Source: Gluconobacter wancherniae NBRC 103581
GTDB lineage: Bacteria; Pseudomonadota; Alphaproteobacteria; Acetobacterales; Acetobacteraceae
Length of the DNA stretch: 64,000 nt
Assembly: GCF_007988885.1 (NCBI RefSeq)
Contig: NZ_BJUZ01000001.1
Location: 868,001-932,000, forward strand
Direction of reading: 5' to 3'
This document shows positions 9,629 to 14,690 of the stretch, piece by piece (within the stretch, counting starts at the first letter, position 1; each line of letters begins with the position of its first letter). The notes below the pieces were generated by a model that made no database searches, was not told the DNA's origin, and was given only the letters and a program-made list of their open reading frames with translations. A program made the position numbers and the translations under genes.

Positions 9629-10528
9629 TTAATTATCTGAATGAGGTGAAGCAGCGAATTCAATAAAATCCTGCAGATATTGAATTTCCTCGTCAGTTTC
9701 CCGATGGCCAAGGAAGATCTGTTTGGCAATGCCTTGTTTGCCAAGTTTTACGGGATAAAGTTCAAAGCGTGTGGCATATTCTTCCACAAGCCAGCGAGGA
9801 AGCGCCGCAACGCCTCTTCCATGGGTGACCATCACAAGCATGATGTCCGTCGTCTCAATCTGCTTCTGCTGTCGTGGCCCAATCCCTGCCGGTTGCAGGA
9901 ACTGCGTGTAAATATCTAGTCGTTCAGATGGAACCGGGTAGGTAATCAATGTTTCGTCTGCGAGTTGCTGTGGCAGGACAAATTTGGCCTTCCGAAGAGG
10001 ATGTTCCGGACCAACAGCCAGCACCAGTTCATAGTCAAATACCGGCGTGAATTTCAGGCCTGGTTTATACAGTGGATCAGGGGTCACCAGAATATCGATT
10101 TCATTGCTGAACAGCGCGCCGATCCCGCCAAACTGGAATTTCTGTCGTACATCAACATCGACCTTGGGCCATCTTTCCAGGTAAGGTGAAACGACCTTCA
10201 GAAGCCACTGATAACAGGGATGGCATTCCATTCCGATGCGCAATGTCCCGCGCCCACCATTTGCAAATTGTTCAAGGCGGCTTTCCGCCAGTTCAAACTG
10301 CGGGAGCAGACGGTTCGCCAGGAACAAAAGCCATTCACCGGCCTGAGTAAGAACAAGGGACCGCCCCTCCCGCCGCCATATCCTGACACCAAGCTGCTGT
10401 TCAATCTTGCGGATAGAATGGCTGAGCGCTGGTTGGGTCAGGTTCAGACGCACCCCGGCAGCCGTTAACGAACCTTCCCGTGCGACTTCCCGAATGATTG
10501 TCAGATGACTGCGTTCCAGAATGCCCAT
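9629..10528 (-). CDS. metR: MetR-like LysR-family regulator
   Basis: A 299-residue LysR protein with HTH at about residues 6-65 (SLTAAGVRLNLTQPALSHSIRKIEQQLGVRIWRR). The effector domain carries MECHPCYQWLLKVV, a segment characteristic of MetR, the homocysteine-responsive activator of methionine genes. It is divergent from the metF remnant at 10741 and lies near mesX-mesD, so a methionine role fits both sequence and context. AT-rich DNA between 10529 and 10740 contains TTCA/TGAA-type half sites, but I cannot assign a MetR box with confidence. Confidence 0.85.
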   Translation of the reverse strand: MGILERSHLTIIREVAREGSLTAAGVRLNLTQPALSHSIRKIEQQLGVRIWRREGRSLVLTQAGEWLLFLANRLLPQFELAESRLEQFANGGRGTLRIGMECHPCYQWLLKVVSPYLERWPKVDVDVRQKFQFGGIGALFSNEIDILVTPDPLYKPGLKFTPVFDYELVLAVGPEHPLRKAKFVLPQQLADETLITYPVPSERLDIYTQFLQPAGIGPRQQKQIETTDIMLVMVTHGRGVAALPRWLVEEYATRFELYPVKLGKQGIAKQIFLGHRETDEEIQYLQDFIEFAASPHSDN

Positions 10529-10740
10529 GTTTGTCCGATAAATGCACGAAATTCATATAACTATAAAACTATATCATTTCAGTTCATTTTTATAAACTTC
10601 TATTATGGGGGACTAATCATTCATGCGGACGCTGCCTATGGTCTCCAATGACATTCACGACCGTTTTCACTGTGGATTGAAATATGGCTTCAATTTTTCT
10701 CCCGAAATTTTCAAGGAAAAATCTGACGCTGTGAGCGTTT

Positions 10741-11340
10741 GTGACTGACATTCTGAGCAACTGGTTGTCGGAAACGCGTATCGACGGATTGTTATCTCGT
10801 AATTCTGCTGTTCCAATCCTGTCCTTCGAGTTTATTCCACTCCGCACTGACGCAATGGAACTGCGGCTCTGGCACTACATCCGGCATCTGGCACCGCTTG
10901 CACCCCGCTTTGTCTCGGTCACCTATGGCGCGGGCGGGACCACGCAGGCCGGCACCCTCTCCACGGTGTTGCGTCTGAAGCGGGATACAGATCTCATTCC
11001 CGCCGCCCACCTGACCTGTGTCGGGGTAACCCGCGCGGACGTAAATGACCTAGCCCGTTGCTATCGGGATGCCGGTGTTAATTATATCGTGGCCCTACGT
11101 GGTGATCTCCCCGCAGGTGTTGCTGACTATAGTCCGCGGCCGGGTTGGCATATGCCTATGCCAGTGATCTTGTTGCCGGTCTGCGTCGTATCATCGCTTG
11201 TATGGTGGCGGTGGAACAGATTCGTACCTTGCCGACCTATGGACTTAACGAGTTTCATGTCTCCACGTTGAGCCGCTCTGACCTGACTTACGCGATTGCC
11301 CATATCCTTGGGGGGGGGGGCGTCCGACGAAGACGAACGC
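10741..11340 (+). pseudogene. metF: Decayed methylenetetrahydrofolate reductase gene
   Basis: The frame from the GTG at 10741 encodes a clear MetF N-terminus: FEFIPLRTDAME, VSVTYGAGGT, HLTCVGVTRADV and ALRGDLP. Near 11145 the frame breaks and continues one frame over as AYAYASDLVAGLRR. Then some 130-150 codons of the middle of the barrel are missing. The sequence jumps to the normal C-terminus (GLNEFHVSTLSRSDLTYAI) and runs into an 11-base G tract at 11310-11320. A full MetF is about 290-310 residues; this product could not fold. The gene lies between metR and the folate-independent methionine synthase genes, which would make its loss tolerable. Confidence 0.85.
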
Positions 11341-11800
11341 ATCTCGTAATGTGGCAGGCCTTCCCTTGTCAGAGATATTCTGTCTTATCTTCAGACACCT
11401 GAACGTCTGGCCCTTTCGAAGGGTAAAGGTCTGAAGCGATTTGTGGATTTTTTTTCAGAACGCCACAGGATTATAGGATGCCGAAAGCAAGAATGTCTGA
11501 AACGGCTGCGCCGGTTCGAATAGGTGCTAGACATGGTTTACCCCACGCTAAACGAGACGCGTGATATTGAAAAATTGATAACGACGGCAGAAGAAATCTG
11601 CAAGCGTCCTTTCACGCCAGCCACTGTTCAGGATGCACTGGGAATTTTCAGTTGGGAGCGCATCAGATGGACGCGTGACGGCAAGCTCAGGCCGATTAGA
11701 ACGAAAAGGATAAAAGGATAAAAGGATCGAGGGCATTTCTCGCTAACTTTATACAGCACAGAAGACGTGGCGAAACTGCTGATATCTTTGGAAATTCTGG
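11341..11800. other. Gap with an unassigned open frame and 8-base tandem repeat
   Basis: Between the metF remnant and the mesD terminator. A 65-codon frame (11524-11721) has no family I recognise. It ends in three perfect tandem copies of AAAAGGAT (11704-11727). The run-out frame after the G tract is also not recognisable. It is probably decayed DNA. Confidence 0.4.
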
Positions 11801-11802
11801 TG

Positions 11803-11838
11803 TCATGGAGGGCAAGACCAGTGTTCTGCCCTCCATGA
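11803..11838. terminator. Hairpin downstream of mesD
   Basis: A perfect 12-base stem, TCATGGAGGGCA (11803-11814) and TGCCCTCCATGA (11827-11838), surrounds a 12-base loop. It lies 22 bases past the mesD stop codon on the minus strand. A clear U tract is missing, so it could be a terminator or a 3-prime stabilising hairpin. Confidence 0.55.
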
Positions 11839-11860
11839 TAGAAAATTGTCGAGTCGACTG

Positions 11861-12889
11861 TCAGGCCGAGAGTTCTTTTCGAACAATTTCCGCACCCGCG
11901 CCCAAAGCATTCAACTTGCCACGTGCTACATCACGCGGCAAAGGCGCCATACCGCAATTGGTGCAAGGATAAAGCTTGTCCGCATCCACGAACTGAAGCG
12001 CTTTTCGCAGAATATCTGCGACTTTTCCAGGGGTCTCAATGGTTGTGGTAGCCACGTCAATGGCGCCTACCATGACTTTTTTCCCACGAATGAGTTCGAT
12101 CAGATCCATTGGGACGCGGGAGTTCTGACATTCCAGTGAAATCAGATCGATATTAGATTTCTGAAGTTTGGGAAAGATCTCTTCATACTGACGCCACTCT
12201 TCCCCAAGAGCATTTTTCCAGTCGATATTGGCTTTGATGCCGTAGCCATAACAGATATGGACGGCGGTTTCGCATTTCAGGCCTTCAATGGCCCGCTCCA
12301 GCGTGGCAATGCCCCAGTCATTGACCTCATCAAAGAACACATTGAAGGCAGGCTCATCGAACTGAATGATGTCGACACCTGCCGCTTCCAGCTCTTTCGC
12401 TTCCTGATTAAGAATTTTAGCAAATTCCCAAGCGAGCTTTTCGCGGCTTTTGTAGTGGCCATCATGCAGCGTGTCGATCATCGTCATAGGCCCAGGGAGC
12501 GCCCATTTGATGGGTTTCTTTGTCAGCGTGCGTAAAAACTTCGCGTCCTCGACGAAAACCGGTTTTTCACGTGCTACGGCCCCCACAACGGACGGCACGC
12601 TCGCATCGTAGCGGTTGCGAATTTTAACCGTCTGACGGTTCTCGAAATCGACACCACTGAGATGTTCAATAAACGTCGTGACGAAATGCTGACGCGTCTG
12701 TTCACCGTCACTGACAATATCAATGCCAGCACGGTCCTGATCGTCCAGCGTCAGGCGAAGTGCGTCCTGTTTGCCCTCGAGAAGTTCTTCTCCCTGCAAT
12801 TTCCAGGGGGACCAGAGTGTTTCAGGCTGTGCAAGCCATGAGGGTTTGGGCAGGCTACCAGCCGTTGAGGTAGGGAGTAGTGTTTTCAT
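11861..12889 (-). CDS. mesD: Core-MetE folate-independent methionine synthase MesD
   Basis: A 342-residue protein equal to the C-terminal catalytic half of MetE, without the N-terminal half. Zinc ligands are suggested by the H and C of AVHICYG and the Cys of LYPCTNCGM near the end. FDEPAF is a conserved barrel strand. The gene behind DUF1852 in this arrangement matches MesD, one of the short methionine synthases known not to use methyl-tetrahydrofolate and to need MesX and oxygen. The methyl donor of that family is not settled. It follows mesX by 27 bases, so the two form an operon. Confidence 0.85.
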   Translation of the reverse strand: MKTLLPTSTAGSLPKPSWLAQPETLWSPWKLQGEELLEGKQDALRLTLDDQDRAGIDIVSDGEQTRQHFVTTFIEHLSGVDFENRQTVKIRNRYDASVPSVVGAVAREKPVFVEDAKFLRTLTKKPIKWALPGPMTMIDTLHDGHYKSREKLAWEFAKILNQEAKELEAAGVDIIQFDEPAFNVFFDEVNDWGIATLERAIEGLKCETAVHICYGYGIKANIDWKNALGEEWRQYEEIFPKLQKSNIDLISLECQNSRVPMDLIELIRGKKVMVGAIDVATTTIETPGKVADILRKALQFVDADKLYPCTNCGMAPLPRDVARGKLNALGAGAEIVRKELSA

Positions 12890-12916
12890 GGAAAATGACC
12901 TTGTATTTCTGAGAGC

Positions 12917-13900
12917 TTAAGCGGTGTAGTCGGCGGACCATTTTTCGAGAATATCGTGATACGGTTTGATGAAATGCTCGTCCGTATAGTGCCCCTGCGA
13001 GATCGCCAGTTGTGTACGCTCCTCACGGTCGTAGACAATACGGGTGTTGGAATAGTCCTGATGTTTCAGGCTCGGCTGACAACAGTCAGCCGCAGCGGAA
13101 TTGGCATTGTAAATTTCAGGACGGTAGACCTTCTGAAAAGATTCCATCACGCTGATGGTGCTGATTAGCTCAAGGGTAGAATAGTCAGACAGCAGATCGC
13201 CAAAAAAATAGAAGGCCAGTGGCGCAGCACTATTACGCGGCATGAAATAACGAACCTGCATTCCCATTTTTTTGAAATACTGATCTGTCAGGGAAAATTC
13301 ACGCTGCTCATATTCAACACCGAGAACAGGATGCTGATTTTCCGTCCGATGATAGGTGCGATTGGTCGAGACACTGAGGCAGATGACCGGCAGTTTTTTA
13401 AAATTCTGCTTGTAAGCCGTCGAGTTCATAACGCTTTTAAAGAGATTTCCATGCAGGTTCCCATAGTTATGGGGGACACTGAATTTGGCTTTCTTTTTAT
13501 TGTAAGCCGGTAACAATACGCTGAAGTCGTAATCCCGCACGTACGAGGAAAAACTGTTCCCGGCGAGGCCCGATATCCGCTTGTTGGCGTTTTTATCAAC
13601 AATTGTTGTGTAGAGGATTTCGATCAGAGGGAAGCTGCCACTTTGGCCAGAAAAGGCAAGATCCATCTCGACAGAAACGATTTCAAGTTCAAGAGTGTAG
13701 CGATCTCTTTTGGTATTATCCCAGTGCGCCAGATCATTGAACCGATTGTCTATCATCCGCAGGACGCTGCGCAGATTTTCCTGACGGCTTTCCCCTCTCG
13801 CCAGATTGGCAAAATTGGTTGTAAGGCGCGTCTTGTCGGAGGGATGGTAGTTCTCATCGAAGCGAAGCCGATGGATACTGAATGTCGTGTCCTGAATCAT
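12917..13900 (-). CDS. mesX: DUF1852 protein MesX, partner of MesD
   Basis: A 327-residue DUF1852 protein with family segments such as TRLTTNFANLARGESRQENLR, NRFNDLAHWDN and the C-terminal EERTQLAISQGHYTDEHFIKPYHDILEKWSADY. In the MesD system this partner is required for methionine synthesis and is thought to act in the oxygen-dependent methyl-donor chemistry. It has no signal peptide or membrane segment, so it is cytoplasmic. It is the first gene of the mesX-mesD operon. MetR at 9629-10528 is the plausible activator. The palindrome TTTCATGAAA (14053-14062) lies upstream and could be part of the control region. Confidence 0.85.
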   Translation of the reverse strand: MIQDTTFSIHRLRFDENYHPSDKTRLTTNFANLARGESRQENLRSVLRMIDNRFNDLAHWDNTKRDRYTLELEIVSVEMDLAFSGQSGSFPLIEILYTTIVDKNANKRISGLAGNSFSSYVRDYDFSVLLPAYNKKKAKFSVPHNYGNLHGNLFKSVMNSTAYKQNFKKLPVICLSVSTNRTYHRTENQHPVLGVEYEQREFSLTDQYFKKMGMQVRYFMPRNSAAPLAFYFFGDLLSDYSTLELISTISVMESFQKVYRPEIYNANSAAADCCQPSLKHQDYSNTRIVYDREERTQLAISQGHYTDEHFIKPYHDILEKWSADYTA

Positions 13901-14099
13901 TATGCTTCTGCATCCCTATCTCCACCTCAAACCAAAATGAGAGCATGAGGCGCATGGCGTCCCCAAGTTTGTCATCTGAGTTTTTTAGGCGACGGTGGTC
14001 ATCGTCAGACCAGCTTTATGCCTGAACGAACCCGTGAACAGAAATGATTTGATTTCATGAAAACATAAATATTGTGCATGGATCGAGGTAGGTTGCTCT

Positions 14100-14690
14100 G
14101 TTGCAAACGATACTTCACCACGTTTCCTTAACGCGCGATGTCTGACAAAGTGTGTATCATTGAAAGAGAGTTGGCCCGCGTTTTTGGGCAGGGCATAAGC
14201 GCGCCCGTCGGCACATGGCGATCATTGGCTTGCGGATGATCTATCAGAAACCGCGGATGGCAGATGACCGTGCCGCATCCGGCACATTAGAAATACCCAT
14301 ATTTGCTAAGGAAGCTGGTGATTGATCGTTTCAATTAGGTCTGGTGCTCCGATATCACCTACATCCCGATGCGTAAGGGCTTTCTTTATCTGGTTGCCAT
14401 CATGGTACTGGTCGAGCCGCAAGGTGCTGTCGTGGCAACTGTCAAACACGATGGATGTCGAGTTCTGTGTCGAGGCGTTGCGGGAGTCTCTGATCTGCTA
14501 CGGTGCGCCGGAGATTTTCAACACGGACGGCCGAACCTCTTTCATTCGTCTCTGACCGCGATTAACTCAAGCCCCTCTGTAAGCCTGACCACTTAGCTCA
14601 AGACCAGTATATTAGGCCTCATCTGGTCGTTTGGCTTCAGATTCTGCAGGGGAAAGTGGCTCTGGCGACGCCTATACCCTCACAGGATAA
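14100..14690 (+). pseudogene. Degenerate IS3-family transposase (OrfB remnant)
   Basis: Translation in shifting frames gives pieces of an IS3 OrfB integrase core: YPYLLRKL, VWCSDITYIPMRKGFLYLVAIM, then VLSWQLSNTMDVEFCVEALRES, YGAPEIFNTDG. Frameshifts fall near 14340 and 14420, stops interrupt it, and the second catalytic Asp region is damaged right after NTDG. No orfA or terminal repeats were identified. It is a dead element. Confidence 0.75.

Follow-up and report, generated by a model that had tools for sequence, protein, structure and literature searches.

Does the broken metF gene beside mesX and mesD in Gluconobacter wancherniae NBRC 103581 show a bacterium giving up the folate route to methionine? 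The sequence-only reading of this locus had proposed so: once MesD supplies methionine, the methyl-folate made by MetF would be dispensable and its gene would decay, the folate route being replaced here. In other species MesD is active without MetF and needs MesX and oxygen, according to the part of PMC7857596 available to us. We followed the question through the window (the whole stretch of 64,000 nucleotides that was analysed), the rest of the genome and the related acetic acid bacteria (AAB).

The core of the window is an ordinary MesX/MesD locus (Table 1). As first described, mesX and mesD lie on the strand opposite metF, mesX being 27 bases upstream of mesD, and a MetR-like LysR gene accompanies them; E. 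coli MetR is the top NCBIfam model for this regulator, albeit below its cut-off of 382 bits. MesD (342 aa) has PF01717 as its sole Pfam domain and aligns without gaps with the solved MesD 3RPD. It retains S12, E63 and D178, which are Ser22, Glu73 and Asp188 of 3RPD by this alignment and our own numbering shift, together with the motifs HICYG, SLEC and CTNCG (substrate and zinc residues). No Rfam match or tRNA was found in the window. A short open reading frame that weakly resembles an integrase core (20 bits, below cut-off) occupies positions 14322–14555, just past the end of the similarity to related loci.

Table 1. Features of the MesX/MesD locus (window coordinates)
Feature	Position	Strand	Evidence
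metR-like LysR regulator	9629..10528	-	PF00126, PF03466; NF011950 205.5 bits, below cut-off
MetR-box-like site upstream of metR, one mismatch	10543..10555	-	pattern scan for TGAA-N5-TTCA
metF relic, N-terminal part, cassette-type	10741..11145	+	PF02219 model positions 9-114 of 287, 87 bits
metF relic, C-terminal part, other frame, past 327-bp deletion	11181..11362	+	blastn against six relatives; alignment
Junction of ~900-bp deletion (metF end, queH, orf3 start gone)	11362..11363	.	blastn, alignment
orf3 relic, no Pfam family	11363..11835	+	tblastn to L021 orf3 residues 16-170, 73%
mesD, core methionine synthase	11861..12889	-	PF01717; NF006589 692.7 bits, cut-off 392
mesX, putative oxygenase partner of MesD	12917..13900	-	PF08908, 580 bits
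MetR-box-like site ahead of mesX, one mismatch	14045..14057	-	pattern scan for TGAA-N5-TTCA

The gene at 10741, whose N-terminal part shares 81% identity with the metF of a relative (L018), encodes no full MTHFR domain in one frame. Its breakpoints were located by blastn against six relatives with a whole gene, and the lesions were aligned with four of these. The frameshift and internal loss that had been read from the sequence are real: the relic has two small frame-shifting insertions and a 327-bp deletion at about 11183. A second deletion, following 11362 and amounting to 900 bp against three of the relatives and 897 bp against the fourth, cost the locus the last part of metF, all of queH and the beginning of a third gene, orf3; a Pfam search of an intact relative's copy of orf3 gave no match. 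The first reading had overlooked the loss of queH and the remnant of orf3, as well as the intact metF and metH elsewhere in the genome. An error of sequencing or assembly is an extremely improbable cause of the broken metF; one small insertion does fall in a run of G, but the two large deletions, one of which took a whole gene, are of equal extent against the relatives. Relaxed selection on the relic was also sought by dN/dS and discarded, there being no contrast with intact copies. As the dN/dS of the relic (0.22–0.33) does not exceed that between intact cassette metF copies (0.20–0.38), the lesions constitute the whole case for decay.

A broken metF beside mesD is in itself no proof that the folate route is lost; the rest of the genome (2.78 Mb, 99.88% complete) decides. 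The search for other copies of metF, metE and metH, which the sequence-only reading had advised, found a chromosomal metF that is intact (C1:110386–111204; 292 aa; MTHFR domain positions 12–284 of 287, 284.5 bits; above the TIGR00676 cut-off) and a full-length, intact metH on C4 (1193 aa, the five expected Pfam domains, TIGR02082 above cut-off), metE being represented by a scrap. At C1:803.7–822.6 kb, 16 clustered genes have cobalamin-pathway domains (DBI_PRT, CobU, CobW, CobN, a NIR_SIR protein in the place of CobG, CbiC, four tetrapyrrole methylases, CbiJ/CobK, CbiD, two CobB/CobQ types, CobO and CobD/CbiB), and a TonB receptor with FecCD, ABC and binding proteins stands at a riboswitch near the cluster. 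Because intact genes of the folate and B12 route thus remain elsewhere, no replacement of the folate route is under way, and the causal account fails for this genome by the very finding of intact metF and metH that it had named against itself. Tested by gene content, a takeover in this genome is ruled out, and as an explanation of the locus the proposal, for which the broken metF beside intact mesX and mesD had spoken, is quite improbable.

At the level of the family the idea fares better. Among 220 genomes of the same draw, 17 with MesX and 203 without, canonical MetF was missing (no match, or E above 1e-20) in 11 of the 17 as against 28 of the 203 (p 8e-6, uncorrected for relatedness, some of the genomes without a match being incomplete). 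This lends some support to MetF becoming dispensable in general, and counts against reading MesX/MesD as a backup. The genomes G054 and G180, of the same genus as ours, have MesX and no canonical MetF. G117, in which MesX and QueH are present and MetH, QueG, CobN, full-length MetE and MetF give no match, looks like a B12-free end point. Yet the loss of MetF does not need MesX/MesD, since 11 genomes lacking MesX have full-length MetE (E below 1e-100) without canonical MetF, and since an MTHFR-like gene stands behind folD. In our genome (C2, L009:3999–5659) folD is overlapped by this 249-aa gene, whose product has an N-terminal ELIPR motif; many relatives have retained both genes as a pair. The protein could be a candidate alternative source of methyl-folate, although its best match among solved MTHFRs is weak (E 0.00087) and no NCBIfam model for MTHFR recognises it above cut-off. 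For a similar protein in Pseudomonas putida, a different function was judged probable by Price et al. (2021), in the accessible part of PMC7857596.

What, then, is the decaying metF? We surveyed the cassette at 38 AAB loci (loci, not species; the window, L007, L010 and all non-AAB loci were set aside). At ten of them mesX, mesD and metR are accompanied by a metF-queH-orf3 operon in which metF and queH are both whole. Two others have metF with a queH remnant, one has metF without queH, and in one the contig ends inside queH; at 19 the stretch contains metR without metF, and at five neither gene. In a midpoint-rooted MetF tree of 22 rows, all 13 intact cassette copies form a single clade (100/100), outside which lie the chromosomal MetF proteins of this genome and of two others, G218 and G030. 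The relic is a second, cassette-type MetF that belongs to this separate clade and is redundant with the chromosomal copy, which further argues against replacement of the folate route. The cassette also appears to have moved laterally, since the dS of mesX to Komagataeibacter saccharivorans is 0.23, whereas that of folD has reached saturation already between this genome and two others of its genus; several copies of the cassette are on plasmids. On one plasmid, of Acetobacter ascendens (L011:7648–10297), mesX is interrupted by an IS1380 transposase gene, and in another genome, apparently from the same strain, mesX is whole and on the chromosome.

The presence of metF and queH inside the cassette at 10 of the 38 loci, together with the end of similarity to relatives 180–190 bp ahead of mesX in the window, might suggest that the cassette metF serves MesX/MesD specifically and that its loss marks the whole cassette as being on its way out. 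We consider this highly improbable. Against four relatives dN/dS was 0.009–0.022 for mesD and 0.071–0.099 for mesX, and 0.009–0.099 over mesX, mesD and metR, by which all three genes appear to have stayed under purifying selection; moreover, all the 19 loci with metR and no metF, except L015, keep a mesX match, albeit split in L011. As regards the MesD/MesX system described in the available part of PMC7857596, our locus shares with it a MesD with PF01717 only, an adjacent MesX and coexistence with MetH, which is reported there for 75% of cases. It differs in that the cassette of relatives carries metF and queH, genes that are broken or gone in the window, and in that no flavin reductase was noticed there. 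QueH, an epoxyqueuosine reductase listed as B12-independent (PMC10378866, in the portion we could consult), is whole in the cassettes of relatives (PF02677, 217 bits in one of them) and deleted in the window; this genome has no QueH match and possesses the B12-dependent QueG instead.

The methionine synthase that this genome has lost is MetE. The scrap at the metE site measures 132 bp, contains a stop (23 bits; tblastn E 0.008) and occupies the same neighbourhood as the whole metE of G030, where metE follows a cobalamin riboswitch (129.6 bits) and is transcribed away from metF and an ArsR-methyltransferase gene. In our genome (C1, L007:9343–11339) a weak cobalamin riboswitch (36.7 bits) accompanies the scrap, beside the intact ArsR-methyltransferase gene and metF. 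The MetE behind the riboswitch, whole in G030, is likewise a B12-independent methionine synthase; it differs from MesD in needing methyl-folate. Across the family, full-length MetE was found in 1 of 17 genomes with MesX and 77 of 203 without (Fisher p 0.007, uncorrected for relatedness), and among the 17, MetH is present in 16, QueG in 16 and CobN in 13. Against MesX/MesD standing in for MetE counts G218, of the same genus and without MesX, in which 140 residues of metE are left and metF is whole. In a further genome of the genus, G131, metE, the ArsR-methyltransferase gene and the chromosomal metF are scraps while the cassette metF is whole; two genomes of the genus have therefore kept different MetF copies.

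Taken together, these results make it probable that a laterally acquired MesX/MesD cassette with its MetR-like regulator is a B12-independent, presumably oxygen-dependent methionine backup beside intact MetF and MetH, standing in for the lost MetE, and that the metF, queH and orf3 of the cassette became redundant and decayed. The cassette would bring a step from homocysteine to methionine that requires no B12 and presumably requires oxygen; this step would coexist with MetF, MetH and the cobalamin genes and would take the place of MetE. Cassettes of this type would once have had their own metF-queH-orf3 operon. Since the genome has a chromosomal metF and a B12-dependent QueG, the cassette metF and queH would have been superfluous and may have been lost neutrally, mesX, mesD and metR being kept.

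The MetR-like regulator may activate the cassette when homocysteine builds up. The MetR box has the consensus TGAA-N5-TTCA. Paired sites of this kind, 21 bp apart and with at most one mismatch each, precede mesX in 14 of 21 related upstream regions; the window has one site of the pair at that stringency. Single-base shuffles gave 0.13–0.17 such sites per mesX upstream region in three loci. That the regulator scores under the cut-off of the MetR model counts against control by MetR.

B12 is a recurring theme around the cassette, one to which we attach moderate interest. A cobalamin riboswitch lies divergent from mesX, 238–381 bp off, at 12 of 47 distinct loci of the family (L155 and L161 are left out as repeats of L028 and L037; L017 and L022 have fewer than 600 bases ahead of mesX, so that a riboswitch there could be cut off). 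None was found near mesX at 11 loci that we chose from other, non-AAB bacteria, nor in the window, and its absence from the window counts against reading this locus as a B12-free backup. A Rieske gene follows the riboswitch at 10 of the 12 loci, cut short in some; Gluconobacter potus is among the species with this unit. The two remaining loci have an insertion at that place (L019) or end at a contig border (L031). Downstream of the riboswitch in L021 (3590–5641), and divergent from mesX, come a gene for a Rieske/VanA_C oxygenase and a small uncharacterised gene; at 113.8 bits against a cut-off of 600, the oxygenase distantly resembles 4beta-methylsterol monooxygenase. Beside the cassette of Komagataeibacter diospyri (L019:1716–5639) stand four cobalamin riboswitches in less than 4 kb, and two of these precede genes for small proteins that match no Pfam family. 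In two strains of Acinetobacter baumannii, mesX transcripts fall in response to B12 (log2 fold −8.33 and −8.07), according to the part of PMC12892962 available to us.

These observations allow us to suggest, tentatively and at rather less than even odds, that AAB exchange a B12-free kit in which MesX/MesD bypass MetH and QueH bypasses QueG, with a spare MetF and a MetR-like gene. At some loci the kit might be joined by a unit under the control of a cobalamin riboswitch, made up of a Rieske oxygenase and small uncharacterised proteins, which may use oxygen to stand in for another B12 enzyme; the window would hold a pared-down copy of the kit. Our literature search found no paper linking queH, metF and the riboswitch. 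Among the matches listed, no title dealt with a cobalamin riboswitch and a Rieske gene in Acetobacter, or with B12, metE or metH in AAB, short search terms of this kind matching many words.

Comparing the loci brings out a pattern that can be tested: B12-independent genes move as a set among vinegar bacteria, B12 apparently controls a Rieske oxygenase and, as part of the same pattern, genomes of one genus have kept different copies of MetF.
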